From: Corynebacterium mycetoides
GTDB taxonomy: Bacteria > Actinomycetota > Actinomycetes > Mycobacteriales > Mycobacteriaceae
NCBI RefSeq assembly: GCF_900103625.1
Contig: NZ_LT629700.1
Coordinates: forward strand, 1,736,001-1,800,000
Direction of reading: 5' to 3'
Length of the DNA: 64,000 bases
Part shown: positions 25,342 to 40,443 of the stretch, piece after piece
How positions within the stretch are numbered: position 1 is the stretch's first letter
How the letters are laid out: each line of letters begins with the position of its first letter
The notes under the pieces: model-generated
What the model saw: the letters and a program-made list of their open reading frames with translations, nothing else
What the model was told of the DNA's origin: nothing
Databases searched by the model: none
Program-made: the position numbers and the translations under genes

Positions 25342-25404
25342 GCCGACCCATGGTAGGCCCACGTTGCCGGGACTGCCCGAGCCATGGGTTACAATCGCGT
25401 CACT

Positions 25405-25489
<85 letters not shown>

Positions 25490-25511
25490 CCCCCCTTTTT
25501 ATTCCCGCTTC

Positions 25512-26645
25512 TTACTTCCGGGCGGCGTCGAGGGCGTCGATAAGCCGCTTCGCGGCCGCCTGCGGGTCCTCCCACTTGTCCAGGCCGAACAGCCCGATGC
25601 GGAAGGTGGAAAAGCCCTCGCCCTCACCGATCTGGAGCGGCACGCCGGACGCGATCTGCACGCCCTGGGGTTTGAGCGCCGCGCCGGACTGCAGTTCGGG
25701 GGAATCGGCGTAGAGCACGACGACGGCGTTGGACTCGTAGCCCGCGGCGGCTACCGAGACGTAGCCGCGCTCGTACGCTGCCTCGCGCACGGCGCGGCCG
25801 AGCTCGACCTGGCGCTGGGCGAGCACGTCGAGGCCCACGGCGAGGGACTCCTTCATCACCTCGAGGTTGCGCACGATCGTGTCGGTCGGCAGGGTGGAGT
25901 GGTAGGCGGCCTTGCCGTCGCGGTAGCCCTCGAACAGCTCGAGCCACTTGGCCAGGTCGAGGGTGAACGACGTGGACTCGCTGGCGACGACGGCGTCGCG
26001 GGCGCGGTCGTTGAGCATGACGTAGCCGGTGGCGGGCGAGCCGGACCAGGACTTCTGCGGGGCGGAGATCAGCACGTCGACCTGGGCCGCGCGCATGTCG
26101 GTGAAGTCGGCACCGGCCGCGATGCAGTCGAGGACGAACAGGGCGTCGGCGGCGCGGGTGGCTTCGCCCAGCGCCGCGGTGTACTCCGCACCCAGGGTGG
26201 TGCCGGAGGCGGTTTCGGTGTGGGCGGTGATCACGAGGTCGGGGCCGAACTCGTCGATGGCGGCGCGGACGTCCTCGATCGCCGGGGGCGCGTAGGACGG
26301 GGTGTCCGAATCGTCGGTGGCAACCGCTTTGAGCACGCGGACCTGGTCGGTAATCGCCCCCTTCTCAATGATCTGGGTCCACCGGTAGGTGAAGTTGCCC
26401 TGCCGGATGATCAGCACCTTCTTGCCGGTGGCGAGCTGGCGCGCGACGGCCTCCATCGCCGCGGTGCCGCCGCCCGGGATGAGCGCGGCGGTATCGGCGT
26501 TGTAGGTGTCGGTGAGGATGCCGAGCAGCTCCTGGGTCGCGGAGATGAACTTCTGCGACATGTGGTTCAGGGAGCGGTCGGTGAACACCACCGAGTACTC
26601 GAGCAGGCCGTTCGGGTCGATGTCATTGTGCGGAAGGTGCGTCAT
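25512..26645 (-). CDS. class V aminotransferase (alanine-glyoxylate / serine-pyruvate type)
   Basis: A 377-residue PLP enzyme. ALIPGGGTAAMEAVARQL is the phosphate-binding turn and SAPQKSWSG carries the PLP lysine; DCIAAGADF is the pyridine-binding strand. The family moves amino groups from small amino acids such as alanine or serine to glyoxylate or pyruvate. The ATG at 26645 is chosen; an ATG four codons upstream overlaps the stop of the next gene as TAATG and is equally possible, and either way the two genes look coupled. Confidence 0.88.
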   Translation of the reverse strand: MTHLPHNDIDPNGLLEYSVVFTDRSLNHMSQKFISATQELLGILTDTYNADTAALIPGGGTAAMEAVARQLATGKKVLIIRQGNFTYRWTQIIEKGAITDQVRVLKAVATDDSDTPSYAPPAIEDVRAAIDEFGPDLVITAHTETASGTTLGAEYTAALGEATRAADALFVLDCIAAGADFTDMRAAQVDVLISAPQKSWSGSPATGYVMLNDRARDAVVASESTSFTLDLAKWLELFEGYRDGKAAYHSTLPTDTIVRNLEVMKESLAVGLDVLAQRQVELGRAVREAAYERGYVSVAAAGYESNAVVVLYADSPELQSGAALKPQGVQIASGVPLQIGEGEGFSTFRIGLFGLDKWEDPQAAAKRLIDALDAARK

Positions 26646-26656
26646 AGCACCCAACA

Positions 26657-27679
26657 TTAGCCCTGGATGGCGCTCCAGGCGCGCATAAAGCGCTCCGCTT
26701 CCTCCCTGTTGGTCACGGTGACGCGCAGCCCCTCTGCGAAGGCGCGCGTGAGCACGCCTTCGGCGGCGAGCTTCGCGCTTATCGACGCCGCGTCGACCCC
26801 CGGCAACCACACGGAGTTCGCCTGCGTGCGGGCGGCGCCGACGTGGTCGGCGACTTCGTCGCGCACGCCGACGGTCTCCTGCGTGCGCGCCCAGACCTCG
26901 TCCTGGGCCGCCAGCGAGGCGATCGCGCCGGCTTGAGCCACGGAGCTGACCTGGAAGGGGATGGCTACCTTGGTGATCGCCTCGATGATGTCTTTCGGCC
27001 CGTAGGCGTAGCCGACGCGCACCCCGGCCAGGCCGTAGGCCTTGGAAAACGTGCGCAGTGCAACCACGTTCGGGTACTTCCTGATCACTTCGGTGCCCAC
27101 CACGGCGTCCTCGTCGCGGTTGTACTCGAAGTAGGCCTCGTCGAGCGCCACGGTGACGTGCTCGGGCACCCGCGCCATGAACGCGTCGAACTCGGCGCGG
27201 GTGACCACCTGGCCCGAGGGGTTGTTGGGGGTGCAGACGAAGATCAGGGACGTGGAGGCGTCGATAAGCGAGGCCATGGCCGCAAGGTCGTGCTTGCCGT
27301 CGCGGTCGACGGGGACGGGGCGGGCCTCGGCGCCGACGACCTGGAGGAAAATGGGGTAGGCCTCGAAGCTGCGCCAGGCGTAGATGACGTTGTTGCCGGG
27401 CGTGCACGTGGCCTGCACCAGCTGCTGGAGCAGGGCGGAGGAGCCGTTGCCCACCGCGACCTCGTCCACGCCCACGCCGAGGTGCTCCGCCAGGGTCTCG
27501 CGCAGCTCGACCGCGAACATGTCCGGGTAGCGGTTCGCCCCGCTCGCGGCGGCCGCCATCGCCTCGGCCGCCGCGGGCAGCGGGGCCTCCGCGGACTCGT
27601 TGGAGCTGAGCTTGAGCGCGTCGTCGGCGCGGGTGCCGGGGACGTAGGGCGGGATGGCAGCGATGTCGGGGCGGATCAT
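26657..27679 (-). CDS. pat: histidinol-phosphate/aromatic aminotransferase (Pat/HisC-like)
   Basis: A 340-residue class II aminotransferase. Motifs are KLSSNESAEAPLP at the N-terminus, CTPNNPSGQ, DEAYFEYN and TFSKAYGLAGVRVGY with the PLP lysine. Corynebacteria have a hisC paralogue, Pat, that makes phenylalanine or tyrosine from the keto acids. The absence of his genes here and the general type favour Pat, but HisC activity is not excluded. The start is MIRPDIAAIPPYVPG. Confidence 0.86.
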   Translation of the reverse strand: MIRPDIAAIPPYVPGTRADDALKLSSNESAEAPLPAAAEAMAAAASGANRYPDMFAVELRETLAEHLGVGVDEVAVGNGSSALLQQLVQATCTPGNNVIYAWRSFEAYPIFLQVVGAEARPVPVDRDGKHDLAAMASLIDASTSLIFVCTPNNPSGQVVTRAEFDAFMARVPEHVTVALDEAYFEYNRDEDAVVGTEVIRKYPNVVALRTFSKAYGLAGVRVGYAYGPKDIIEAITKVAIPFQVSSVAQAGAIASLAAQDEVWARTQETVGVRDEVADHVGAARTQANSVWLPGVDAASISAKLAAEGVLTRAFAEGLRVTVTNREEAERFMRAWSAIQG

Positions 27680-27736
27680 GACAGCCAAGTCTATTTGGTG
27701 CCCGGGCTCGGCGTTGGGTAAGATGCGTGGAGGTCT

Positions 27737-27824
27737 GGAGACGTGCCAGAGTGGCCGAATGGGGCTCCCTGCTAAGGAGTTGCCCTCTTGACGAGGGCCG
27801 CAGGTTCAAATCCTGTCGTCTCCG
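27737..27824 (+). tRNA. tRNA-Ser(GCT)
   Basis: An 88-base class II tRNA with acceptor GGAGACG/CGTCTCC, anticodon loop CTGCTAA (GCT), a long variable arm and T loop GGTTCAAATC. CCA is encoded at 27825-27827. It shares its acceptor stem with tRNA-Ser(TGA) 2.3 kb upstream. Confidence 0.96.
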
Positions 27825-27908
27825 CCACATATCTTCTACCCCCATCCGTGAATCTGCGGGTGGGGATTTTCAATGCGCTGACCACAAACGGGTCTATGCT
27901 TTCCGCTC

Positions 27909-29276
27909 GTGGATAACACGCTCTCGCCCGCGTTCTGCGGGCCGGCGCGGCTGACCGCCGCCGTTTTCCTCGGCCTCATCCTCGCCGGGACACTCCTTCT
28001 CATGATGCCGTTTTCCACGGCCGGGCCGCAGCCCGGGTGGGCGCCGTTTTTGCCGTCGTTGTTCACAGCCACCTCCGCCGTGTCGCTGACGGGCCTGATC
28101 GTCGTGGACACCGGCACGTACTGGACCCCGGTGGGCCAGGCGATCATCCTCGCGCTCATCCAGCTCGGCGGCCTCGGCATCATGTCCCTGGCCTCCCTCT
28201 CCGGGCTGCTGATCACCGGCCGCATCAGCTTCAAGGCGCGCAAGACCGGCGCGGCCGAGGGCAGGCCGGTCACCTCCGGCGGCATCAAGCACGCGCTCAT
28301 CTTCACGGTGGCGTTCACGCTGCTGACCGAGGCGGTCGTGGCGGTCGTCGTGGCGCTGCGGCTCATGGTGCACTACGGCCACCCGCCCGCGCGGGCCGCC
28401 TGGGAGGGCGTGTTCCACGCCGTCTCCGCGTTCAACAACGCCGGGTTCAGCACCAACTCCGACAACCTCGTCCCCTTCGCCGCGGACGCGTGGATCCTGC
28501 TGCCGCTCGCGGCGGCGCTCATCAGCGGCGGGCTGGGATTCCCGGTGTGGGCGGAGCTCACGCGGCGGCTGCGGCTGAGGCGGCTGGGGAAAGCGCAGGC
28601 GCACCGCTTCTCCATCACCGCGCGCATCACGCTGGCGGCCACGGCGTTCCTCGTGGTCGCCGGCACCGTGTTCGTGGCCCTGGTGGAGTGGAACGGGTTT
28701 TTGGGCGGGATGCCGGTGTGGCAAAAGCTGCTCAACGCGTTCTTCGCCGGGGTCTCGCCGCGCACGGCCGGGTTCAACGCCGTGAACTACGCCGACGCGC
28801 ACCCGATCACCCTGATGGGCACCGACATCCTCATGTTCATCGGCGGCGGCTCCGCCGGCACGGCGGGCGGAGTGAAGGTGACCACCGTGTGCGTGCTTCT
28901 CGCGGCGATGGCGGCCGAGTTCCTCGGGCGCGAGGACACCTCCATCGGGCACCGCACGCTGCCGCGCTCCGCCACCCGCCAGGCGCTCGCCCTGACGTTC
29001 GCGGGCGTGGTCGTGGTCACCGCGGGCGTGGGCGCGCTGCGCCTCTTCGACCCGGAGTTCACCGGCGACCAGGTGTCCTTCGAAGTCATGTCGGCGTTCG
29101 CCACCGTGGGCCTGTCCACCGGGATTACGGCCGACCTCTCGGCACCGTCGCAGATTATCCTGTGCCTCATCATGTACCTGGGGCGCGTCGGCCCCACCAC
29201 ACTCATAGCGGCGCTGGCTGCCCGCGCGGTCAGCAGGCGCTTCCGTTACCCCGAGGAAAGGCCCTTCATTGGCTAA
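27909..29276 (+). CDS. TrkH/KtrB-family potassium transporter subunit
   Basis: A 455-residue channel-like K+ transporter with four repeated membrane-pore-membrane units. Filter-loop segments are SAVSLTGL, SAFNNAGFS, SPRTAGFN and SAFATVGLSTG, as expected for TrkH/KtrB. It begins with a GTG codon. The end overlaps the TTG start of the TrkA-type regulator by eight bases, so the pair is translated together as a Ktr/Trk uptake system. Confidence 0.94.
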   Translation: MDNTLSPAFCGPARLTAAVFLGLILAGTLLLMMPFSTAGPQPGWAPFLPSLFTATSAVSLTGLIVVDTGTYWTPVGQAIILALIQLGGLGIMSLASLSGLLITGRISFKARKTGAAEGRPVTSGGIKHALIFTVAFTLLTEAVVAVVVALRLMVHYGHPPARAAWEGVFHAVSAFNNAGFSTNSDNLVPFAADAWILLPLAAALISGGLGFPVWAELTRRLRLRRLGKAQAHRFSITARITLAATAFLVVAGTVFVALVEWNGFLGGMPVWQKLLNAFFAGVSPRTAGFNAVNYADAHPITLMGTDILMFIGGGSAGTAGGVKVTTVCVLLAAMAAEFLGREDTSIGHRTLPRSATRQALALTFAGVVVVTAGVGALRLFDPEFTGDQVSFEVMSAFATVGLSTGITADLSAPSQIILCLIMYLGRVGPTTLIAALAARAVSRRFRYPEERPFIG

Positions 29277-29955
29277 CTTGTTCAGGATGGGCGGCGCGAA
29301 GCCCACCATCGACATCCCGCCCGTCGTCGTCATCGGCCTGGGCCGCTTCGGCACCGCGCTCGCGCGCGAGCTCATGGTCCACGGCGTCGAGGTGCTCGGC
29401 ATCGACACCAACGAGAAGATCGTCACCGAGCAGGCGCCGTACCTTACCGAGGCCGTCACCGCCGACACGACCGATCCGGAGGCGCTGCGCCAGCTCGGGG
29501 TCGACGAGGTCGAGCGGGTGATCCTGGCGATCGGCTCCCACCTGGAATCCTCCATCCTCACCGCCTCTAACCTGGTGGAAATGGGGATCAAGGACATCTG
29601 GGCGAAGGCCGACTCGGAGGCGCACGCGCGCATCCTCACCCAGATCGGCGCGCACCACGTCATCCGCCCCGAGCGCGACACCGGCCGGCGCGTCGCCCAC
29701 CTGCTCGGCGGCCGCTTCCGCGACTTCGCCGAAATCGCCACCGACTACGGCGTCACCCAGCTCACGCCCCCGCCCTTCCTCGTCGGCCACCCGATCTCGC
29801 CCGACGAGCTGTGGCGCGCCCACCAGGTCCAGCTCGTGTCCGTGCGCCAGAGTGACGGGCACTGGACGCCGCTTGTCAGCGGCTCCACCCTCACGTCCAC
29901 CGACATCATCGTCGCCGCCGGAAGCCCCGGCGCCCTCGAGAAGTTTTCCAAGTAG
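29269..29955 (+). CDS. TrkA/KtrA-type RCK regulatory subunit
   Basis: A 228-residue cytoplasmic protein with an RCK_N Rossmann domain (VVVIGLGRFGTALARELMVHGVEVLGID) and an RCK_C (TrkA_C) domain from about residue 140. It gates the membrane partner in response to nucleotides; cyclic-di-AMP binding to the C-terminal domain is known in some relatives. The TTG start is supported by an AGGAAAGG site seven bases upstream; an ATG six codons later is an alternative. Confidence 0.93.
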   Translation: MANLFRMGGAKPTIDIPPVVVIGLGRFGTALARELMVHGVEVLGIDTNEKIVTEQAPYLTEAVTADTTDPEALRQLGVDEVERVILAIGSHLESSILTASNLVEMGIKDIWAKADSEAHARILTQIGAHHVIRPERDTGRRVAHLLGGRFRDFAEIATDYGVTQLTPPPFLVGHPISPDELWRAHQVQLVSVRQSDGHWTPLVSGSTLTSTDIIVAAGSPGALEKFSK

Positions 29956-29966
29956 AGGAGATTCAC

Positions 29967-31331
29967 GTGAAGATCTCTGACCCGCATGCCGTGCGCCTGC
30001 TGGAGAGGCGTTTGGGTGGGCGTCGACACGCGCTGGCGGAAGAGCTGGAGGAGATCAAGGACCAGCTCGAGACTTTAAGTTTCCGCGACATCACCGGCCT
30101 GGTGATGCGCACCAGCCCCGTGCGCGGAGCGAAGCTGCTGCGCCTGCTGCCTCCGGAGCGCTCGGCGGCCGTGTTCGACGCGCTCAACCCCGCCCACCAG
30201 GCCGACATCATCACCGCGATGGGCGACGAGCGGGTGGTTGACTACTTCGGGTCGATCGGCGCCGAGGACCGCGTAGCGCTGCTCGACCACCTGCCGGCCG
30301 AGATCGCCGACCGGCTCATCCGCGAACTCGACGAGGGCGACCAGGAAGTCACCAACGTCGTGCTCGGCTACGCCAAGGGCACGGTCGGGCGCCGGATGTC
30401 GCCGAAGGTCCCGGTGGTCACGCCCTCGATGACGGTCGACGAGGTCGTGGCCACGCTACGTGCCGACGTCGACAGGCTGGAGACCATCTACACCATCCCC
30501 GTCGTCGACGAGGATCGCCGAGTGTGCGGCGTGCTGCGCCTCCGCGCTCTGTTCGGGGCCGAGGGGACGGACACCGTCGCGGACGTGATGGAGCCGCCGT
30601 TCGTGTTCCGCGCCGGCGACGACCTCGAGGATTCGGCGCGCTGGCTGCTGTCTTCGGCACGCCTCGCCGCGCCCGTGGTCGACGACGACAACCGCCTGCT
30701 GGGCATCTTGACCTACGACGAGGCGCACGACGTGGTTGAGGGCGCCAACAGCGAGGACTCCGCGCGCATGGGTGGTTCCGAGGCGCTGCGCCAGCCCTAC
30801 CTGTCCACCCCCGTGATCCGGCTCGTGCGCAGCCGCATCGTGTGGCTGCTCGTGCTCGCCGTTTCCGCGATCCTGACGGTCAAGGTGCTCGACGTATTCG
30901 AGGAGACCCTGCACAAGGCCGTCGTGCTCTCCCTGTTCATCCCGCTGCTCACGGGCACCGGCGGCAACACGGGCAACCAGGCGGCTACCACGGTCACGCG
31001 CGCGCTCGCGCTTAACGACGTCCGCAAGTCCGACGCCTTAAAAGTCATGTGGCGCGAGCTGCGGGTGGGCATGACGCTCGGTGCGGTGCTGGGCGTGCTC
31101 GGCTTCGGCATCGCCACCGCCGTCTTCGGGCTGCCGATCGGCACCGTCATGGGTGCCACCCTCTTCCTCATCTGCACCATCTCGGCGACGGTCGGGGGCA
31201 TGATGCCGATCATCGCCAAGGCCGTCGGGGCCGACCCGGCCGTGTTCTCCAACCCCTTCATCTCGACCTTCTGCGACGCCACCGGCCTGATCATCTACTT
31301 CTTCATCGCGAAGGCGGTTCTTGGCATTTAA
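29967..31331 (+). CDS. mgtE: MgtE-family magnesium transporter
   Basis: A 454-residue Mg2+ channel/transporter. The N-terminal helical domain (LLRLLPPERSAAVFDAL) is followed by two CBS domains (about residues 140-265), then five membrane helices with TGTGGNTGNQA, the conserved pore and gating motif. It starts at a GTG behind a GAGGAG site, 11 bp after the TrkA-type gene, so K+ and Mg2+ uptake may share a transcript. Confidence 0.94.
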   Translation: MKISDPHAVRLLERRLGGRRHALAEELEEIKDQLETLSFRDITGLVMRTSPVRGAKLLRLLPPERSAAVFDALNPAHQADIITAMGDERVVDYFGSIGAEDRVALLDHLPAEIADRLIRELDEGDQEVTNVVLGYAKGTVGRRMSPKVPVVTPSMTVDEVVATLRADVDRLETIYTIPVVDEDRRVCGVLRLRALFGAEGTDTVADVMEPPFVFRAGDDLEDSARWLLSSARLAAPVVDDDNRLLGILTYDEAHDVVEGANSEDSARMGGSEALRQPYLSTPVIRLVRSRIVWLLVLAVSAILTVKVLDVFEETLHKAVVLSLFIPLLTGTGGNTGNQAATTVTRALALNDVRKSDALKVMWRELRVGMTLGAVLGVLGFGIATAVFGLPIGTVMGATLFLICTISATVGGMMPIIAKAVGADPAVFSNPFISTFCDATGLIIYFFIAKAVLGI

Positions 31332-31392
31332 ACGCGTGACCTGCCGTTTTGGCGGTCTACGGGGTGCGGTGTAATGTTCTATCTCGTTGCAA

Positions 31393-31465
31393 GCGCCCGT
31401 AGCTCAACGGATAGAGCATCTGACTACGGATCAGAAGGTTGGGGGTTCGAATCCCTCCGGGCGCA
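31393..31465 (+). tRNA. tRNA-Arg(ACG)
   Basis: A 73-base tRNA: acceptor GCGCCCG/CGGGCGC, anticodon loop CTACGGA (ACG, read as ICG after TadA editing), T loop GGTTCGAATC, discriminator A. Notably the tadA gene, whose product deaminates exactly this anticodon, lies 1.7 kb downstream. Confidence 0.97.
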
Positions 31466-31472
31466 CAACCTG

Positions 31473-31500
31473 AAACCCCGGGCCGAGCGGTCCGGGGTTT
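31473..31500 (+). terminator. intrinsic terminator after tRNA-Arg
   Basis: A nine-base-pair stem AAACCCCGG / CCGGGGTTT with a ten-base loop follows seven bases after the tRNA and is followed by CGTGTTTC. It fits a rho-independent terminator with a short T-rich tail. Confidence 0.75.
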
Positions 31501-31513
31501 CGTGTTTCACCTT

Positions 31514-31606
31514 CCCCCCTAAACCTTCCCCCTAAACTCGGACACCCCGAACTTGCCCCGGGTTTAGACGGAAGAGGGGGATGTTGCACGTTCCGGGTTT
31601 AGGGGG
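31514..31606. repeat. CCCCCTAAAC-type inverted repeat between tRNA-Arg and tyrA
   Basis: CCCCCTAAACTCGGAC (31528-31543) pairs with GTTCCGGGTTTAGGGGG (31590-31606); further copies of the core are CCCCCCTAAAC (31514-31524) and CCGGGTTTAG (31558-31567). The block lies downstream of both the tRNA and the convergent tyrA gene. It may terminate tyrA transcription, but the four-copy layout is more than a simple terminator. Confidence 0.65.
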
Positions 31607-31622
31607 AGCGGGACGCACCCCC

Positions 31623-32648
31623 TCAGAACACCTCCACGCGCCCGCCGAGGGCCTCGATCTGCTCGAGCTGGCGCACCCACCCGGGCGCGCCGGGGTGCAC
31701 CCGCATGACGGGGCGCGAGGAGATCTTCACCGGCGAGACGGATTCGTGCCGGGCCCCAGAGCGCGCGCCCATGCGCACGTAGGCGCGGTTGCCGGACTCC
31801 GCCAGCTGCTTCAAGGAGGGGGTGTTGGCGGACAGGGTGGCGCGGGCGTCGACAAGCAAGGCGATGAACTCGTCGAGCACCGGAACGAGCGCTTCTGCGT
31901 TGGTCTCGCACATGTTGCGGACGAGCGAGGGGTCGGTGTCGGCGACTCGGGTCGCGCCCTTGAACGAGCCCGCCGCCAGCGACTGCGCAAGCGTGCCGCC
32001 GTGGTCGCCCACGATGGCGAGCGACTCCGCGATCACGTGCGGCAGGTGCGAAACGCGCGCGACGGCCTCGTCGTGGCGGCTAACGGACACGGGCACGGCC
32101 TCCGCGCCCGTCACCGACGCCAGGGTGCAGACCTGCACAAACAGGGTCGACCACGACTCGGGCACGGGCGTGCCCGCGCCGTCGAGCTCGGCGGCGTAGT
32201 CGTAGGTCACCGCCCAGGCCGCGCGGTGGAACAACCCCTCAAGGGAGGCGCCCCAGCCGGAGTTCTCCGTGCCGGACATGGGGTGCCCGCCGACGTAACG
32301 GGACTGCAGCCCGTGGGAGCGGACGAGGTCGTAGACCGGCTTCTTCACGCTGACCACGTCGGTGATGCCGCAGTGCGGCGCATGTTCCGCGATCGCGGCG
32401 AGCACCTGGCCGACGGCCTCCATGGGCACGGCGATGACGATGAGCGCGCTGGCCTCTGCCGCGCGGCGCAGTGTGTCCGCGAGGTCGGTGGAGACGTCGA
32501 AGCCTTCCCTCTGGGCGGCGCGGGTGGCCGAGCGCGAACGGTTGTAGCCGAACACGTCGAGCTCGCGGGCGCTCAGGTCGCGCATGATGGAGCCCCCGAT
32601 GAGCCCGAGGCCGAGGATGCAGACAGGAGGGAGGTTGGCGGAAGTCAC
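31623..32648 (-). CDS. tyrA: prephenate dehydrogenase TyrA
   Basis: A 341-residue NAD(P)-dependent enzyme of tyrosine synthesis. The Rossmann motif is GLGLIGGSIMRDL; GGHPMSGTENSG and SRHDEAVARVSHLPHVIA contain the family His and substrate residues. It can act on prephenate or arogenate; corynebacteria favour arogenate. A GTG start is used. It is divergent from the TadA partner gene, with 39 bp in between that must hold both promoters. Confidence 0.93.
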   Translation of the reverse strand: MTSANLPPVCILGLGLIGGSIMRDLSARELDVFGYNRSRSATRAAQREGFDVSTDLADTLRRAAEASALIVIAVPMEAVGQVLAAIAEHAPHCGITDVVSVKKPVYDLVRSHGLQSRYVGGHPMSGTENSGWGASLEGLFHRAAWAVTYDYAAELDGAGTPVPESWSTLFVQVCTLASVTGAEAVPVSVSRHDEAVARVSHLPHVIAESLAIVGDHGGTLAQSLAAGSFKGATRVADTDPSLVRNMCETNAEALVPVLDEFIALLVDARATLSANTPSLKQLAESGNRAYVRMGARSGARHESVSPVKISSRPVMRVHPGAPGWVRQLEQIEALGGRVEVF

Positions 32649-32687
32649 GGCATCAAGTTTCTCACAACGCGACTACGCTGACTATCC

Positions 32688-33179
32688 ATGAGCCAGGATT
32701 TCGACGGGTATGAGGACGGCTACGCGGTTGTCGTCGCCAAGCAGGGCGGGGAATGGGTCGTGCGCGAGTTTGCCGATTCGTTCGAGTCCCTGGCCACGTC
32801 CGTCGCGGCGGTCCGCGGGATGCGCAGCGAGGGGGCGGCGTTCGCGATCCTCAACGTCGAGGAGGGCTACCTGGTGATCGTGCGGCCCGGGCCGTCGACA
32901 ATTCGCGTGCTCATCTCGGACGCGACGATGGCGGTGGACGATGACTTCGCCGCCGAGGTGCTCGCGGAGGCCGGCATCGAGGTCCCCGACATCGACGTCG
33001 ACGAGCTGGACATGGTCGACGGCTACCCGGACGGCGACTTCGACATCCTGGCGGACGTGGGGCTGCGCAGCGAGGTGCTCGAGGTGATGCTGGACTCGGA
33101 CGACGACCCGTACCTCATCATCGAGCGCATCGCCGATGAGCTGGGCTTTTCCGACGAGCTCGCGGACGCCCTTGACTGA
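32688..33179 (+). CDS. tRNA adenosine deaminase-associated protein
   Basis: A 163-residue acidic protein (EVPDIDVDELDMVDGYPDGDFD) of the actinobacterial family always found before tadA. Its role is not known beyond this linkage. ATG start. Its stop overlaps the TTG start of tadA, so the two are translated together. Confidence 0.88.
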   Translation: MSQDFDGYEDGYAVVVAKQGGEWVVREFADSFESLATSVAAVRGMRSEGAAFAILNVEEGYLVIVRPGPSTIRVLISDATMAVDDDFAAEVLAEAGIEVPDIDVDELDMVDGYPDGDFDILADVGLRSEVLEVMLDSDDDPYLIIERIADELGFSDELADALD

Positions 33180-33630
33180 TCTGCGGCTCGCGGAGGTACG
33201 CATGGGCCGGGCGATTCAGCTCGCCCGCCTCACGCCGCGTGGCGACGTCCCGGTGGGCGCCGTTGTCTTCTCACCTGACGGCCGCGAGGTGGGGCGCGGC
33301 GTCAACCGCAGGGAGGAGCTGCGCGACCCGACCGCGCACGCCGAGGTGGAGGCGCTGCGTGCCGCCGCTCGCACGCTGGGCACGTGGCGTCTCGACGGCT
33401 GCGAGCTCGTGGTCACCCTGGAACCGTGCACGATGTGCGCCGGCGCGATCCTGGGTGCGCGCGTGTCATCGCTGGTCTTCGGCGCCTTCGAGCCGAAGAC
33501 GGGGGCGGTGGGCTCGCTTTTCGACGCCCTGCGTGACCCCCGCCACCTGCACACCGTCGAAGTGCGCGGCGGGGTGCGCGAGGAGGAGAACGCGGCGCTT
33601 CTCAGCGAATTCTTTGGCCGCCTGCGGTAA
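33172..33630 (+). CDS. tadA: tRNA-specific adenosine deaminase TadA
   Basis: A 152-residue deaminase converting A34 to inosine in tRNA-Arg(ACG). The zinc site is HAEVEAL and PCTMCAGAI, with the catalytic Glu in HAE. The TTG start overlaps the stop of the partner gene and gives the normal N-terminal helix; an ATG at 33202 would remove most of that helix. Confidence 0.93.
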   Translation: MTDLRLAEVRMGRAIQLARLTPRGDVPVGAVVFSPDGREVGRGVNRREELRDPTAHAEVEALRAAARTLGTWRLDGCELVVTLEPCTMCAGAILGARVSSLVFGAFEPKTGAVGSLFDALRDPRHLHTVEVRGGVREEENAALLSEFFGRLR

Positions 33631-33719
33631 TCCGGGAGTGACTCGAGACACAATCGTTATCCCGGGCCTCCGGCGCCGCTGCTAGGTTGGTGTCACAGAC
33701 CAACAGAAAGGATCGCATC

Positions 33720-33926
33720 ATGGCATTCGAAGGTAAGGGCGACCAGCTCAAGGGCAACATCAAGGAGGGCCTCGGCGAGGCCGCCGGCGACAAGTCCCTC
33801 GAGAACGAGGGCAAGGCGGACAAGCTCGGCGGCGATATCCGCGAGAAGGCGTCCGAGGCCGGCGACGCCATCAAGGACTCCGTCAATGGGGCGGCCGCGA
33901 AGATCCAGGACGCGCGGGAGAACTAA
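33720..33926 (+). CDS. CsbD-family stress protein
   Basis: A 68-residue, highly charged, disordered-looking protein starting MAFEGKGDQLKGNIKEGLGEAAGD, the signature of the CsbD family. CsbD proteins rise under general stress; their molecular role is unknown. An AGAAAGGA site precedes the ATG. It is monocistronic, between tadA and tRNA-Ser(CGA). Confidence 0.92.
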   Translation: MAFEGKGDQLKGNIKEGLGEAAGDKSLENEGKADKLGGDIREKASEAGDAIKDSVNGAAAKIQDAREN

Positions 33927-33964
33927 TTTGGTCTCGCGGACACGCTACCGTTAATCTGTTTCAC

Positions 33965-34049
33965 GGTAGCGTGTCCGAGCGGCCGAAGGTGCTCGCCTCG
34001 AAAGCGAGTGTGGGTAAAACCACCGCGGGTTCAAATCCCGCCGCTACCG
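33965..34049 (+). tRNA. tRNA-Ser(CGA)
   Basis: An 85-base class II tRNA: acceptor GGTAGCG/CGCTACC, anticodon loop CTCGAAA (CGA), long variable arm, T loop GGTTCAAATC, discriminator G. CCA is encoded at 34050-34052. Confidence 0.96.
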
Positions 34050-34062
34050 CCAAATTCACGCT

Positions 34063-34094
34063 AAAGCCTCCGACCTTCACGGGTCGGGGGCTTT
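34063..34094 (+). terminator. intrinsic terminator after tRNA-Ser(CGA)
   Basis: An AAAGCCTCCGACC / GGGTCGGGGGCTTT stem with a TTCAC loop, ending in TTTGT, starts 11 bases after the encoded CCA of the tRNA. Confidence 0.8.
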
Positions 34095-34137
34095 GTCTGT
34101 AACGACCTCCATACCTCTTATGTAAGGACGCGCAAAA

Positions 34138-36519
34138 GTGGCGAAATTTTTGTTCAACGTGGGTCGCTGGTCCTACCTGCACAAGTGGCGGGTGATCGCG
34201 GCGTGGCTGCTGCTGCTGGCGGCCACGGCCGGCGCGGCGGCCACGTTGTCCAAGCCGTTCACCTCGGAGTTCGCCATTTCCGGCACACCGGCGATTGAGG
34301 CCTTGGGCACCCTGGACGAGAACTTCCCCGGCTCGGGCGACATCGCGACCGCCCCCACAGTGAACCTGGTGTTCGCCGCCCCCGAGGGGCAGCGACTGGA
34401 CATCCCGGAGAACATGGAGGTGATGGACCGCACCGTCGACTACATCGCCGACAACTTAGACGGAATCACCGCAACGGAACGGTTCGGTAACCCGGTCAGG
34501 GTGAACGAGGAGCTGGGCCGCACCATCGTCGAGCAGATGACGCAGATGGGTCTGCCGGAGGAAAACGCGCGGGCGGACGCGTACAACGTGCGCACGCTGT
34601 CCGACGACGCACGGATCGGGTTCACCTCCTTCAACTTCGGTGCCGACTCGGCGATGACGGTCACCCAAGAAGAGCGCGACGTGGTCAACGAGGCGATGGA
34701 GCTCGGCCGCGCCGCGGGGCTGACGGTGGAGGCGGGCGGCCCGGGCTTCGGCGAACCCATCGAGATCAAAACCACCAGCGAGCTGATCGGCCTGGCCGTG
34801 GCGTTCGTGGTCCTGCTGTTTACGTTCGGCTCCCTGGTCGCGGCGTCGATGCCGGTGATCACCGCCGTGATCGGCGTGGGCATCGGGGCGCTGCTCATCC
34901 TGGTGGCCACCCATTCCGTCGAGCTCAACGAGATCACCCCGGTGCTGGCGGTGATGATCGGCCTGGCCGTGGGCATCGACTACGCCCTGTTCATTCTTTC
35001 GCGCTACCGGCAGGAGCGCGCCCACCTCGCCGGGCCGGACGCCGCCGGCCTAGCCACGGGCACCGCCGGGTCCTCGGTGGTGTTCGCCGGGCTAACCGTG
35101 TTCACCGCGCTCATCGCGCTGGCGCTGGCGCAGATCGAGTTCCTCACCTGGATGGGCGTGGCCGCCGCCGTCACCGTCGCCGTGTCCGTGCTCATCGCGC
35201 TCACGCTGATCCCGGCCCTGCTCGGGGCGTGGGGCGAGAGGTCCTTCGCGGTGAAGATCCCGGGCGTGGCGGGCAACCCCGGCCCAGGCCGCAGGCCGGC
35301 CAAGAACCTGGCAGCCTCGTCGATGGGGCGCAGCTGGGTGCGGTTCGTGCGTCGGTTCCCCGCGGTGGTGATGGCGGTGGTTGTGCTCGGGCTGGGCGCG
35401 TTGTCCATCCCCGTGCTGGGGCTGCAGATGTCGCTGCCGTCGGACTCCACGTCGAACTACGACACCACCCAGCGCAAGGCGGCGGATCTGATGGCGAAGG
35501 GCTTCGGCCCGGGGGTCAACGGGCAGTTCCTCCTCGTCGTCGACGCCCACGACGTGAACCCGCACGCCGAGATCCTCCGTCCGTACATGGACGCGATGCC
35601 GGACGAGACCGTCGGGGACGCGCAGAAGGCGGCGCTGGCGTCCTTCCTGTACACGGTGGGGGAGGCCAAGAGCGTCAACGGTGTCCGCCACGCGCAGCTC
35701 GTCGCCGTCAACGAGGACCTGACGGCCGCACAGATCGCCGCGACACCGGTCACCGGCCCGGAGGAGGAGTTCACCCTGTCCGTGGCCCACGCACTGCGGG
35801 AGACGAGCGCCCGGGTGGAGGACGCCACCGGCGTGACCATTGGGCTCACGGGCCTGACGGCGGTGCAGATGGACATCACCGAGGAGCTGGCCAACGCGAT
35901 GCCGCTGTACCTGTCCATCGTCGTGGGCCTAGCCATCGTGCTGCTCATCCTGGTCTTCCGCTCGATCATGGTGCCGGTGGTCGCCGGCCTGGGCTTCCTC
36001 CTGTCCGTCGGCGCCGCCTTCGGCGTGACCATCGCCGTGTTCCAAATGGGCGCGTTCGGCCTGGTGGACACCCCGGCCCCGATCATTTCGTTCATGCCGA
36101 TCTTCCTCATCGGCGTCACCTTCGGCCTCGCGATGGACTACCAGGTGTTCCTGGTCACCCGCATCCGCGAGCACTACCTCAAGCATCGCGGCGGCCCGGG
36201 CGGGGAGCTGCGGGCCGTGGAGGAGTCGACGGTGGAGGGCTTCGCCCAGGGCGCGCGCGTGGTCACGGCCGCCGCGGTGATCATGATCGCGGTGTTCGTG
36301 GCGTTCGTGGACCAGCCGCTACCGTTTATCCAGATCTTCGGTTTCGCCCTGGCCGCGGCCGTGCTGTTCGACGCCTTCTTTATCCGCATGACCCTCGTCC
36401 CCGCCACCATGTTCATCCTCGGCCGCGCCACCTGGTGGATGCCACGGTGGCTGGATCGCATCCTGCCCGAGGTCGACGTCGAGGGCACAGAGCTGGAAAA
36501 GGAGTTCGAGCATGCATGA
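34138..36519 (+). CDS. MMPL-family RND transporter
   Basis: A 793-residue exporter of the MMPL type with two repeats, each a membrane helix, a periplasmic loop and five or six helices. GLAVGIDYALFILSRYRQE (first half) and GLAMDYQVFLVTRIRE (second half) hold the Asp-Tyr pairs that relay protons in MmpL3-type proteins. It is shorter than corynebacterial CmpL trehalose-mycolate exporters would suggest and lacks a large C-terminal domain, so the cargo is unknown; lipid export is likely. GTG start. Its stop overlaps the tgt start. Confidence 0.92.
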   Translation: MAKFLFNVGRWSYLHKWRVIAAWLLLLAATAGAAATLSKPFTSEFAISGTPAIEALGTLDENFPGSGDIATAPTVNLVFAAPEGQRLDIPENMEVMDRTVDYIADNLDGITATERFGNPVRVNEELGRTIVEQMTQMGLPEENARADAYNVRTLSDDARIGFTSFNFGADSAMTVTQEERDVVNEAMELGRAAGLTVEAGGPGFGEPIEIKTTSELIGLAVAFVVLLFTFGSLVAASMPVITAVIGVGIGALLILVATHSVELNEITPVLAVMIGLAVGIDYALFILSRYRQERAHLAGPDAAGLATGTAGSSVVFAGLTVFTALIALALAQIEFLTWMGVAAAVTVAVSVLIALTLIPALLGAWGERSFAVKIPGVAGNPGPGRRPAKNLAASSMGRSWVRFVRRFPAVVMAVVVLGLGALSIPVLGLQMSLPSDSTSNYDTTQRKAADLMAKGFGPGVNGQFLLVVDAHDVNPHAEILRPYMDAMPDETVGDAQKAALASFLYTVGEAKSVNGVRHAQLVAVNEDLTAAQIAATPVTGPEEEFTLSVAHALRETSARVEDATGVTIGLTGLTAVQMDITEELANAMPLYLSIVVGLAIVLLILVFRSIMVPVVAGLGFLLSVGAAFGVTIAVFQMGAFGLVDTPAPIISFMPIFLIGVTFGLAMDYQVFLVTRIREHYLKHRGGPGGELRAVEESTVEGFAQGARVVTAAAVIMIAVFVAFVDQPLPFIQIFGFALAAAVLFDAFFIRMTLVPATMFILGRATWWMPRWLDRILPEVDVEGTELEKEFEHA

Positions 36520-37774
36520 TCTGAGTTTCGAGGTGGGCGCGCAGCTTGACGACGCCCCCGGCAAGCACGGCCGCACCGGCACCATCCACACCCCCCACGG
36601 CGACATCGCCACGCCTGCGTTCATCCCGGTGGCCACCAAGGCGACGGTGAAGACGCTGACCCCGGAGCAGATTCGCCGGGTCGGCGCCCAGGCGATCTTG
36701 TCCAACGCCTACCACCTCTACCTGCAGCCCGGCCCCGACATCGTCGACGAAGCCGGGGGAGTGGCCGCGTTCGAGAACTGGCACGGCCCGACGTACACCG
36801 ACTCGGGCGGCTTCCAGGTGATGAGCCTGGGCGTGGGGTACAAGAAGGTACTGGCGATGGACACCCTCCACCACAACCGCAATGACATCCGCGCGGGTGA
36901 GAAGGAGCGCCTTGCCAAGGTGGACGAGGACGGCGTGGACTTCAAGAGCTTCATCGACGGCTCGGCGCACCGGTTCACCCCGGAGGTGTCGATGCAGATC
37001 CAGCACCAGCTGGGCGCGGACATCATCTTCGCCTTCGACGAGCTGACCACCCTGGCGGACACCCGCGCCTACCAGGAACACTCCGTGGAGCGCACCCGCC
37101 GCTGGGCGCAGCGCTGCCTCGACGAGCACGACCGGCTCACCCGGGAGAGGGCGGGCAAGCCGAAGCAGTCGCTGTGGGGCGTGGTGCAGGGCGCCCAGTA
37201 CGAGGACCTGCGTCGCCACGCCACCCGCGGGCTGCTCGACCTCGACGCCCGGGCGCGCGCCGAGGGGCGGCGCGGCTTCGGCGGCTTCGGCATCGGCGGC
37301 GCGCTGGAGAAGGAACACCTGGGCACGATCGTCGGCTGGGTCACCGACGAGCTGCCGGCGGACAAGCCGCGCCACTTGCTCGGCATCTCGGAGCCGGACG
37401 ACATTTTCGCCGCCGTGGAGGCGGGCGCGGACACCTTCGACTGTGTGGCCCCCACCCGCCTGGGCAGGCGGGGCGGGGTGTACACCTTGGACGGGCGGCT
37501 CAACCTCACCGGCGCGCGCTTCAAGCGCGACTTCACGGGCATTGACGAGGAGTTCGGCGGCTACGTCTCCGAGAACTACTCGCGTGCGTACATCCACCAC
37601 CTGCTCAAGGCGAAGGAGTTCCTCGCCGGCACGCTGTGCACGATGCACAACCTGGAGTTCATGATCCGGCTCGTGGATAACATCCGCGCCGCCATCCAGG
37701 ACGGGACCTACCCGGAGTTCAAGGCCGAGTTTCTGGGACGGTATTACGCTCCAGCCGCTTCACCCACGCAATGA
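36512..37774 (+). CDS. tgt: tRNA-guanine transglycosylase homologue (Tgt) lacking the zinc cysteines
   Basis: A 420-residue TIM-barrel Tgt. Tgt exchanges G34 of GUN-anticodon tRNAs for a 7-deazaguanine. Both catalytic acids are present: Asp97 in YTDSGGFQVMSL and the nucleophile Asp310 in FDCVAPTR. The zinc site is not: before NYSRAY the usual CxCxxC is FGGYVS (348-353), although the His of TMHN (379) remains. The base pocket also differs: the usual FDEC is FDEL, and GGLAVGE is GGALEKE (262-268). Its ATG overlaps the MMPL gene stop, and its last 56 bases overlap yhhQ on the other strand. Next to a queuosine-precursor transporter and gluQ it fits base salvage. Confidence 0.88.
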   Translation: MHDLSFEVGAQLDDAPGKHGRTGTIHTPHGDIATPAFIPVATKATVKTLTPEQIRRVGAQAILSNAYHLYLQPGPDIVDEAGGVAAFENWHGPTYTDSGGFQVMSLGVGYKKVLAMDTLHHNRNDIRAGEKERLAKVDEDGVDFKSFIDGSAHRFTPEVSMQIQHQLGADIIFAFDELTTLADTRAYQEHSVERTRRWAQRCLDEHDRLTRERAGKPKQSLWGVVQGAQYEDLRRHATRGLLDLDARARAEGRRGFGGFGIGGALEKEHLGTIVGWVTDELPADKPRHLLGISEPDDIFAAVEAGADTFDCVAPTRLGRRGGVYTLDGRLNLTGARFKRDFTGIDEEFGGYVSENYSRAYIHHLLKAKEFLAGTLCTMHNLEFMIRLVDNIRAAIQDGTYPEFKAEFLGRYYAPAASPTQ

Positions 37775-38378
37775 CCTGGTAGGTGACGGGCACGAGCACA
37801 GCCTCCATGAGCGTCTTCCACGCGAAGCCGACGACGACGTAGTTGATGAACTGCCCCGGTGTCTCAATGCCGATAACGCCGGCGGCGATCGCGCAGAAAA
37901 TGAGGGTGTCGAAGAACTCGCCGACGATCGTGGAGCCGATGAGGCGCGCCCACAGGTGGCTGGGCCCGAAGCGGTCTTTCATCTTCTGCAGCACCCACGC
38001 GTTGAGCAGCTGGCCGACAACGTAGCCCGCCAGCCCGGCGATGAGGATCCGGGGCAGCGTGCCCAAAATCGAGGCGAAGGTCTCCTGCGCCTCGTAGAAG
38101 GGCGCGGGAGGAAGGGCGATGGCGATGCTGAATGATGCCACCGCTAGCAGGGTGACACCAAACCCGATGAAGACGGTGCGACGCGCCGCCTTGAAGCCGT
38201 AGACTTCTGCGATGACGTCGCCGATGATGTAGGAGATCGGAAAGAGGAAGAAGGCTCCATCGGTGATCAGAGGCCCGAGCTGCACGCCCTTTTGCGCGGT
38301 GATGTTCGAGATGATGAACACCGCGCAAAACACGGCGACAAGAATGGGGTACGGGGAGCGGGTAGTGGGATGATTCAC
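37719..38378 (-). CDS. yhhQ: queuosine precursor transporter YhhQ (VUT family)
   Basis: A 219-residue membrane protein with about six helices. SNITAQKG, FPISYIIGDVIAEVYGF, FFDTLIFC and the C-terminal YQVIAWVKRLE match the YhhQ/VUT family, which imports preQ0/preQ1 or queuine. I choose the GTG that gives VNHPTTRSPYPILVAVF; the longer open frame upstream runs into gluQ. Divergent from gluQ with only 18 bp between start codons, so their control signals must overlap. Confidence 0.88.
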   Translation of the reverse strand: MNHPTTRSPYPILVAVFCAVFIISNITAQKGVQLGPLITDGAFFLFPISYIIGDVIAEVYGFKAARRTVFIGFGVTLLAVASFSIAIALPPAPFYEAQETFASILGTLPRILIAGLAGYVVGQLLNAWVLQKMKDRFGPSHLWARLIGSTIVGEFFDTLIFCAIAAGVIGIETPGQFINYVVVGFAWKTLMEAVLVPVTYQVIAWVKRLERNTVPETRP

Positions 38379-38396
38379 GCGTAATATCTTAAGGCC

Positions 38397-39290
38397 ATGA
38401 CGGCCGGACGCTATGCACCCTCCCCGAGCGGGGATTTGCATTTCGGCAACCTGCGCACCGCGGTGCTGGCGTGGTTGTTCGCGCGGCAAAGCGGCCGCGC
38501 CTTTTATTTGCGTGTCGAGGATATTGACTCGGAGCGGTCTTCCCCGGAGTCCGCGCGCCGGCAAATCGAGGATCTGCAGGCGATCGGCCTGGATTTCGAC
38601 CCGCCGGTTATCTACCAGTCGCAGCGCTCGGAGTTGTACGAGGCCGCGCTGTCTCGCCTGCCTGTCTACGAGTGCTACTGCACCCGCCGCGACATCCGCG
38701 AGGCGTCCGGCGCGCCCCACGTGATGCCCGGCATGTACCCGGGCACGTGCCGCGACCTCAGCGAGGATGAGCGCGCTTATCGACGCTCCCAGCTACGCGC
38801 CGAAAACCGCCTCCCGTCTCTGCGCCTGCGCGCGTCGGTAAGAGAATGGACAGTGCGGGATCTCTACCGCGGAGAGTACACCGGCGCCGTCGACGACGTC
38901 GTGTTGCGGCGCGGTGGCAACGTCAACCAGGCCCAAGCCGGCGACTGGGCGTACAACTTGGCCGTGGTCGTCGACGACGGCGAGCAGGGCGTCGACCAGG
39001 TCGTGCGCGGCGACGACCTGCTGGACTCCTCGTTCACCCAGGCGTACCTCGCGCACCTACTGGGCTTCCGTGAGCCCGAGTACGTGCACGTGCCGCTGGT
39101 GGTCAACCGGGAGGGGCGGCGCCTGGCCAAGCGCGACGGGGCGGTCACCCTGCGCGAGATGGGCCCGGTGGACGACGTCGTGGCCCGCATTTCGGAGTCC
39201 GTGGGGTGCGCGGGCGTCTCCTCGACGTCCGTGTTGCTTGAGGCCTTCGACCCGGCGGCGCTGCCGCGCGACCCGTGGGTGTGGTGCTAG
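38397..39290 (+). CDS. gluQ: glutamyl-Q tRNA(Asp) synthetase GluQ
   Basis: A 297-residue truncated glutamyl-tRNA synthetase lacking the anticodon-binding domain. It attaches glutamate to the cyclopentene ring of queuosine in tRNA-Asp. The HIGH-like motif is SGDLHFGNL, the KMSKS-like motif is LAKRDGAVT, and a zinc site is formed by ECYCTRR and YPGTC. A working GluQ needs queuosine in tRNA, which ties it to tgt and yhhQ next door. Confidence 0.94.
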
Positions 39291-39300
39291 AGGGAAGTAC

Positions 39301-40108
39301 CTACGCCCGGCAGTCCTCCGGGCCGGGCACCACTTCGTCCAACGGGCGCTCGAGCCCCCATTGGGTCAGCGCGATCATCGTTCGGTGCGTCGGCATGTAC
39401 GGGTGGGTGATCGGGATGGCGGGGGAGCAGGCGGCCTGCGCGTCGAGGTTCGCCACGTTCGCGCCGGGAACCGCCTCGAAGAAGGACGCGGAGTTGGGGG
39501 TGACCACCGTGTCCAAGCTGGACACCAGCGACGTGTACGTCACGCCCGCGGCGGTATCGGGGTAGGAGTTGGCCTCCACCATCGTGGGAGACCCGGCGAC
39601 CTGCTGGATTGCCGCAGGGGAGCTCACGAGCGAGGTGAACGTGGGCAGGAGGGTGGACCACAACAGCGAGAATACGGCCGTGCCGTTGAGGGTGGTGCCG
39701 TGCAGGTTCCCGCCCAGGGTGACGACGCGGCCGACCTCGTCCGCGTTGCCGAAGCGGGAGACGTAGTTCTTCGCATGCAGCGCGCCCTGGGAGTGGGCCA
39801 CAAGGTCCACCTTTTCCGCGCCGGTCTCCTCGAGGACGCTGTCGATAAAGGCGGCCACTTCTTGCGAGCTCTCCATCAGGTCGGCGGTGCCGTAGGGGCT
39901 CAGCGGCTCCCGGCCGTAGTTGACGGCGTAGATGCAGTAGCCCTGACCGCGCAGGTGAGAGGCCATTTGAGTGAACATCGATGCGTTGGCGTAGGTGCCG
40001 TGGATCAGTACGACGGGGTTGGGATGCTCAGGCGCCGGAACGCAGGACAGAAGCGGCTATCGCACATGCCAGTACGGCGGCCGCGCAGGAGCGAGCAAGT
40101 TTGATCAC
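39301..40108 (-). pseudogene. secreted lipase/esterase with a frameshift after the signal peptide
   Basis: The GTG at 40108 opens a signal peptide (VIKLARSCAAAVLACAIAASVL) that meets a stop at 40028-40030. One base on, the frame reads CVPAPEHPNPVVLIHGTYANAS and continues as a normal alpha/beta-hydrolase to 39301. The lipase has the oxyanion strand VVLIHG and the nucleophile elbow AHSQG, resembling corynebacterial triacylglycerol lipases. One extra base near 40041-40050 explains both frames. Either a true null allele or an assembly error; an internal ATG at 39978 would lack the oxyanion strand. Confidence 0.82.
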
Positions 40109-40195
40109 AGGTGGATACTAACGCTAACCCAGGCGGCGTGCTGGGCGGCAAGAGAACAGAGGGGCGAGAGCACCCACTCTCGGGGGCACGTAAGA

Positions 40196-40222
40196 AAACT
40201 CCCCCGCGTAAGCAGGGGAGTC
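40196..40222 (-). terminator. intrinsic terminator of tRNA-Ser(GGA)
   Basis: On the minus strand ACTCCCC pairs with GGGGAGT around a ten-base loop and is followed by TTTTCTT, seven bases after the tRNA 3' end. Confidence 0.75.
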
Positions 40223-40228
40223 GGAGGG

Positions 40229-40314
40229 CGGAGGATGTGGGATTTGAACCCACGAGGGTATTGCTACCCGCACGCGTTCCAGGCGTGTGACATAGGCCGC
40301 TAGTCGAATCCTCC
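40229..40314 (-). tRNA. tRNA-Ser(GGA)
   Basis: An 86-base class II tRNA on the minus strand: acceptor GGAGGAT/ATCCTCC, anticodon loop CTGGAAC (GGA), long variable arm and T loop GGTTCAAATC. CCA is not encoded. Confidence 0.96.
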
Positions 40315-40443
40315 AAAAAGCAACGCTCACGCGTCGGGGGATAACTTTAGCCGATGGGCATTTGCGGGCCAAAACGGCAGGTCACTTTGCGTCACTCGAG
40401 GGCTTTTGAGGTTGGCGTGTCCACCGGCTAAAGTGTGGCCCTA

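Follow-up and report, generated by a model that had tools for sequence, protein, structure and literature searches.

Zinc is stated in the available part of PMC9508795 (citing Chong 1995) to be needed for the activity of tRNA-guanine transglycosylase (TGT), and in excerpts of PMC9508795 and PMC6165067 the zinc domain counts as a defining mark, or hallmark, of TGTs. The locus described here raises the question of whether a TGT that lacks the zinc cysteines can be a working enzyme, and which base it would insert. The locus lies in a window of 64,000 nt from Corynebacterium mycetoides (contig NZ_LT629700.1, 1,736,001 to 1,800,000), and all coordinates below are positions in this window. The genus sample comprised 121 Corynebacterium genomes, that of the window included, and 14 control genomes were searched beside them.

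The tgt gene (36512..37774, plus strand) encodes a zinc-less tRNA-guanine(34) transglycosylase of 420 aa. Next to it lie the gene of a QPTR/YhhQ queuosine-precursor transporter (37719..38378, minus strand; PF02592; TIGR00697, 116.3 bits against a cut-off of 50.95) and gluQ, the gene of a glutamyl-Q tRNA(Asp) synthetase (GluQRS; 38397..39290, plus strand). The GluQRS scored 286.3 bits with NF004315 (cut-off 250) and 267.1 bits with TIGR03838, just under the cut-off of 276.7. The first-pass annotation had described tgt, yhhQ, and gluQ as adjacent, and the open reading frames (ORFs) and profile matches agree. Although adjacent, the three genes do not form one operon, as QPTR is encoded on the minus strand. 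The 3' end of QPTR overlaps that of tgt, tail to tail, by 56 nt; its presumed start is a GTG, and the ORF continues further upstream. gluQ starts just past QPTR on the plus strand. A search of 33900-39600 revealed no promoter-like site, which says little for Corynebacterium.

The start of tgt overlaps by 8 nt the 3' end of an MmpL-family transporter gene (34138..36519, plus strand), identified as an ORF. Its closest PDB relative is MmpL3, which exports trehalose monomycolate; the match scored 148.8 bits, although the protein falls far below the MmpL3 equivalog cut-off. Its place beside tgt may therefore be unrelated to queuosine. An MMPL protein of Corynebacterium propinquum was assayed as a Q-precursor importer; the accessible part of PMC11130926 reports no complementation, with expression problems not ruled out. 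The MmpL gene is a neighbour of tgt, with at most a putative role in queuosine salvage. Within the 19.5-kb stretch around tgt, matches to MmpL, GluQ, and QPTR were found in 38, 33, and 26 of 40 Corynebacterium stretches, respectively; a gene missing from a stretch is not necessarily missing from the genome. In the genus g325 (L238), the tgt matches listed belong to open frames some 1370-1610 aa long, in agreement with the Tsukamurella MMPL-TGT fusion described in the same part of PMC11130926.

The window's Tgt scored 408.7 bits with the bacterial TGT (bTGT) profile TIGR00430 (cut-off 306.75), and its predicted model matches the TIM-barrel fold of Zymomonas TGT. Residue correspondences were taken from the alignment with the Zymomonas enzyme. 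The two catalytic aspartates that had been noted earlier are indeed present: Asp97 (36800..36802, plus strand; D102 of Zymomonas) and the nucleophile Asp310 (37439..37441, plus strand; D280). D97, D176, D310, and H379 are all kept in 121/121 Corynebacterium genomes. By score, fold, and catalytic residues, the protein as aligned is a bTGT, but it has neither the zinc hallmark nor either of the two pocket motifs described in print. Its closest named relative is that of Corynebacterium sanguinis (91%). L110 (G489) encodes a divergent TGT-like protein with 35% identity to the window's Tgt and the loop NGVLERE; its CxCxxC motif is present but shifted by an insertion.

At the place of the zinc ligands C318, C320, and C323 of Zymomonas, the window's Tgt has FGGYVS (residues 348-353; 37553..37570, plus strand), with F348, G350, and S353 at the three cysteine positions. 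All three cysteines are thus missing, as first reported from the sequence. The fourth ligand, H349, is kept as His379 (37646..37648, plus strand), here and throughout the genus sample. The alignment over Corynebacterium genomes that had been proposed as a check was run, and CxCxxC was absent in 121/121; residues 346-357 contain no Cys in 118 genomes and one Cys in three. Among 391 actinomycete-type Tgt rows, some of which are the same gene, 252 had none of the three cysteines and 139 had all three; the three single-Cys Corynebacterium genes were added only later and stand outside the 391. The replacement loop is conserved in its turn, with G350 in 100% and S353 in 97% of the Corynebacterium rows, and N350 in 90% and S353 in 83% of the other zinc-less rows. 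The reading of the window as a sequencing or assembly error is refuted, with practically no probability left to it, by the same loss in 121/121 Corynebacterium genomes and in sequences from six other genera.

Zinc-less Tgt was found in named proteins or genomes of Gordonia, Williamsia, Jongsikchunia, Tsukamurella, Lawsonella, and Dietzia, and in the Dietzia-like genomes L221-L223. Zinc-containing Tgt was found in Mycobacterium/Mycolicibacterium, Rhodococcus, Nocardia, Aldersonia, Brevibacterium, Sediminivirga, and Microlunatus, and also in Kocuria, Rothia, Micrococcus, Nakamurella, Propionibacteriaceae, and Nanopelagicales. The zinc site had been called near invariant, which is not the case in this lineage. 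Of the 30 TGTs with the best scores in the phylum sample (L031-L060), nine showed a milder variation, with His in place of the first zinc Cys (HxCxxC): L032, L033, L035, L036, and L038-L042. A viral source of Tgt was rejected; 12 pattern matches turned up among the viral contigs scanned, and not one of them codes for a relative.

In a 66-row tree built without the zinc columns, the 36 zinc-less rows formed one side of a branch (support 100/98), and this split was recovered in 200/200 bootstrap trees. This tree contains no far outgroup; with the root placed by hand on six actinomycete rows, it gives one change. A 72-row tree with six far outgroups kept 33 zinc-less rows together (100/97) and also gave one change, as did an 82-row tree with the zinc columns kept in. 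One tree of 67 rows, with Dietzia added and three far outgroups, counts against a single loss: the root fell inside the zinc-less group, which makes two changes, and one change was seen in 0/200 bootstrap trees. The outgroup joins this tree on a branch of 2.75. From these alignments the split of the zinc-less rows within the ingroup appears firm. The direction of the change was likely loss, because regaining a matching CDCYTC seems implausible. Most simply, there would have been one loss.

The tgt gene was found in all 121 Corynebacterium genomes and in 190/201 genomes of the wider family. Its median dN/dS was 0.042 for 38 zinc-less pairs and 0.050 for 34 zinc-containing pairs; the window's own pair had the highest value of the 38, 0.105. 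The zinc-less tgt is under purifying selection. A decaying or moonlighting enzyme that has given up base exchange would agree with the stated need for zinc (PMC9508795, in part) and with the tgt genes split into two pieces or frames in 2/121 genomes (L343 of G102 and L344 of G077, by decay or assembly error); the low dN/dS, the catalytic aspartates conserved across the genus, and the near-universal presence of the gene make it very improbable. We regard the loss of the zinc site from TGT as real, clade-wide, and maintained by selection.

It had been suggested that the altered Tgt needs a partner protein for stability. The window's genome has one tgt, the sampled genomes carry one as a rule, and the dimer hot-spot positions are kept; judged from these, there is no sign of a partner. 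A pair in the dimer of TGT is formed by K52 and E339, as PDB titles indicate. In 38 aligned rows, the dimer-contact positions K47, F87, Y356, Y360, and E369 were invariant and H363 nearly so. An aromatic hot spot of the TGT dimer is described in an excerpt of PMC5395182.

A different view of the zinc site is that of a metal switch, in which His379 and the newly conserved D345, E347, and S353 still bind a metal, so that the enzyme would not be metal-free. E347 is present in 42% of the zinc-containing rows but in 99% of those of Corynebacterium and 92% of the remaining zinc-less ones, and for D345 the shares are 86%, 100%, and 95%, respectively; with His379 invariant, another ligand set at the metal site is possible. 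However, the loop is highly variable in Dietzia, where several sequences have no E347 or no S353. All rows compared, those with zinc included, have His379-Asn380, which may have a different function. Moreover, the loop is predicted to be ordered without the cysteines and without a metal, with pLDDT values of 93 (residues 341-350) and 95 (residues 351-360). We consider the metal switch improbable. Positions 48, 222, 257, 370, and 381 were among those differing most between the zinc-less and the zinc-containing sets; for such co-variation, shared ancestry is a confounding factor. A general sparing of zinc across the pathway is not supported. In GluQRS, C93, C95, Y114, and C118, the zinc ligands as in the E. 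coli enzyme, are kept in 111/111 loci with a match of at least 200 bits; these loci come from zinc-less and zinc-containing Tgt lineages together, and some genomes are represented twice.

The base pocket is altered too. Its loop is GGALEKE (residues 262-268; 37295..37315, plus strand), and FDEL (residues 175-178; 37034..37045, plus strand) places L178 at C158 of Zymomonas. The first-pass annotation was right that the pocket is altered to GGALEKE and FDEL; it was not right in treating the loop as a letter-for-letter exchange of GGLAVGE, as the loop is also three residues shorter than in six outgroup rows. An actinomycete-type insert of about 25 residues, which had gone unmentioned, lies behind the D97 loop within residues 107-133 (36830..36910, plus strand), after TDSGGFQVMSL. 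It is found in 60 actinomycete-type rows and is missing from 30 others in the same alignment; its residues 107-117 are predicted with pLDDT below 50. The earlier link between the pocket change and the zinc loss was not borne out. Leu178 is present in 75% of the zinc-containing and 100% of the zinc-less rows, and A264 and K267 in 100% of the zinc-containing rows as well. Because zinc-containing actinomycete TGTs, such as those of Mycobacterium, Nocardia, and Rhodococcus, share the GGALEK pocket, the pocket change and the zinc loss are separate features, and zinc loss as the cause or consequence of the pocket change is not supported.

According to the available part of PMC10723273, bTGTs that use queuine have GG[LS][AS]G and those that use preQ1 have GGLAVG; the window's Tgt has GGALEK in place of either. 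An excerpt of PMC6165067 states that V233 would obstruct queuine in Zymomonas TGT. With the loop shortened as aligned, the V233 position may be missing. The Glu and Lys that the loop carries could interfere with queuine. Like the queuine-binding human QTRT1 described in that excerpt, the window's Tgt has Phe (F101) at the position of Y106 and lacks a Cys at that of C158. The GGALEK pocket may stand in Table S2 of PMC10723273 or in the supplements of PMC11130926.

None of the 121 Corynebacterium genomes had a match to QueA (9/14 controls), QueG (7/14), QueH (2/14), QueF (8/14), or QueT (only 1/14). QPTR was found in 95/121 genomes (9/14 controls). The other 26 have tgt and no QPTR or QueT match; another importer is therefore possible there. 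GluQRS is kept in at least 117/121 genomes: 114 scored above the level of GltX-like proteins by profile, G076 only just but beside tgt, and in G033, G054, and G065 tblastn located a GluQ-like stretch close to tgt, with 280-315 bits. G028, G046, G075, and G078 stand outside the 117. The search for QueC gave a match in 120/121 genomes, but, apart from G118, no genome had a best match with an E value below 1.3e-7; among the matches listed, those outside G118 are N-terminal pieces of about 50-120 residues, and these partial matches were taken for other ATP pyrophosphatases. L241 of G118, a 53%-complete genome, holds the one full-length QueC-like match among the genus-sample matches listed.

The locus had been read as a queuosine-salvage set without synthesis genes, and the absence of QueA, QueG, QueH, and QueF from the whole sample upholds this. 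The proposed search for synthesis genes came out as expected for QueA, QueG, and QueF and less cleanly for QueC, with its short partial matches and the exception of G118. The window's genome has neither a second canonical tgt nor a full queuosine pathway. The presence of tgt in the absence of QueA and QueG/QueH is the gene pattern of direct queuine salvage. GluQRS acts on Q34. Because QueA, QueG, QueH, and QueF are absent and GluQRS is kept, direct queuine salvage is the likeliest reading, and queuine would be the likeliest salvaged base. Of the earlier proposal that Tgt takes a different 7-deazaguanine, possibly salvaged queuine, the queuine part thus stands as the likeliest reading, supported by the missing genes.

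The pocket, which lies outside both published rules, counts against the queuine explanation. It could instead insert preQ1, preQ0, or another 7-deazaguanine, as Bartonella, which inserts preQ1 with tgt as its only gene of the pathway and so shows that such a genome need not use queuine (PMC10723273, in part). The short loop bearing Glu and Lys would suit this reading. There is, however, no QueF to make preQ1 and no QueA, QueG, or QueH to finish it, and the widely kept GluQRS has no known use without Q. Another substrate is unlikely, though less so than a metal switch.

The explanation we favour, and hold to be probable, is that this is a working Tgt whose zinc subdomain folds without zinc. The three cysteines would have been replaced, most simply once, in the ancestor of Corynebacterium, Dietzia, Lawsonella, Gordonia, Williamsia, Jongsikchunia, and Tsukamurella. 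The loop and its neighbouring residues would have been repacked, while the catalytic and dimer-contact residues stayed. QPTR would import queuine, and Tgt would take it directly and swap it for G34 of GUN tRNAs; GluQRS would then glutamylate Q34 of tRNA-Asp, with glutamyl-Q as the presumed end product. The stated need for zinc (PMC9508795, in part) counts against activity without it, and the 26 genomes with no QPTR or QueT match count against the explanation too. The more specific version, a zinc-free, queuine-inserting homodimer that arose by one-step loss and has a third kind of pocket (short GGALEK loop plus insert) outside both published rules, has in our judgement about an even chance of being correct.

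Compared with the bTGTs of Zymomonas mobilis and E. coli, the window's Tgt lacks the zinc cysteines, has the shorter GGALEK loop, and carries the insert of about 25 residues. The zinc-containing actinomycete TGTs (Mycobacterium, Nocardia, Rhodococcus, Brevibacterium), with about 59-70% identity to the window's Tgt, share the GGALEK-type pocket and the insert but keep CDCYTC or a close form. Chlamydia trachomatis, described as a direct queuine salvager in the available part of PMC10723273, similarly has tgt and QPTR without QueF, QueA, QueG, and QueH; Corynebacterium differs from it in keeping GluQRS, in a pocket other than GG[LS][AS]G, and in the loss of the zinc site. Eukaryotic QTRT1 and QTRT2 form an enzyme of two subunits, whereas here there is one tgt gene as a rule, and both subunits keep the zinc domain according to the excerpt of PMC6165067.

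The queuine-salvage reading itself is already known, since the accessible part of PMC11130926 predicts it for most Actinomycetota of a gut set, which lack QueA and QueG/QueH. No title among the matches listed from the open-licence PubMed Central literature concerned a TGT that lacks its zinc ligands. In the part of the literature covered by that search, neither the zinc loss nor its extent came up, nor the fact that it is separate from the pocket change. New, it seems, is that the TGT zinc site has been lost across a whole clade, under selection, next to a GluQRS whose own zinc ligands are kept. A natural lineage of TGTs that is conserved and yet lacks the ligands offers a direct test of the role of zinc; if our explanation is true, TGT does not need its zinc site. 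The results also suggest that the actinomycete enzymes fall outside the pocket-motif rule for queuine and preQ1 users, and that queuine from other organisms is probably what Corynebacterium and its relatives rely on.

Around the locus, positions 25404-40315 of the window hold four tRNA-Ser genes and one tRNA-Arg(ACG) gene inside 15 kb. Among them lies a tadA-like gene (33136-33630), which scored 132.7 bits, below the cut-off of 150.
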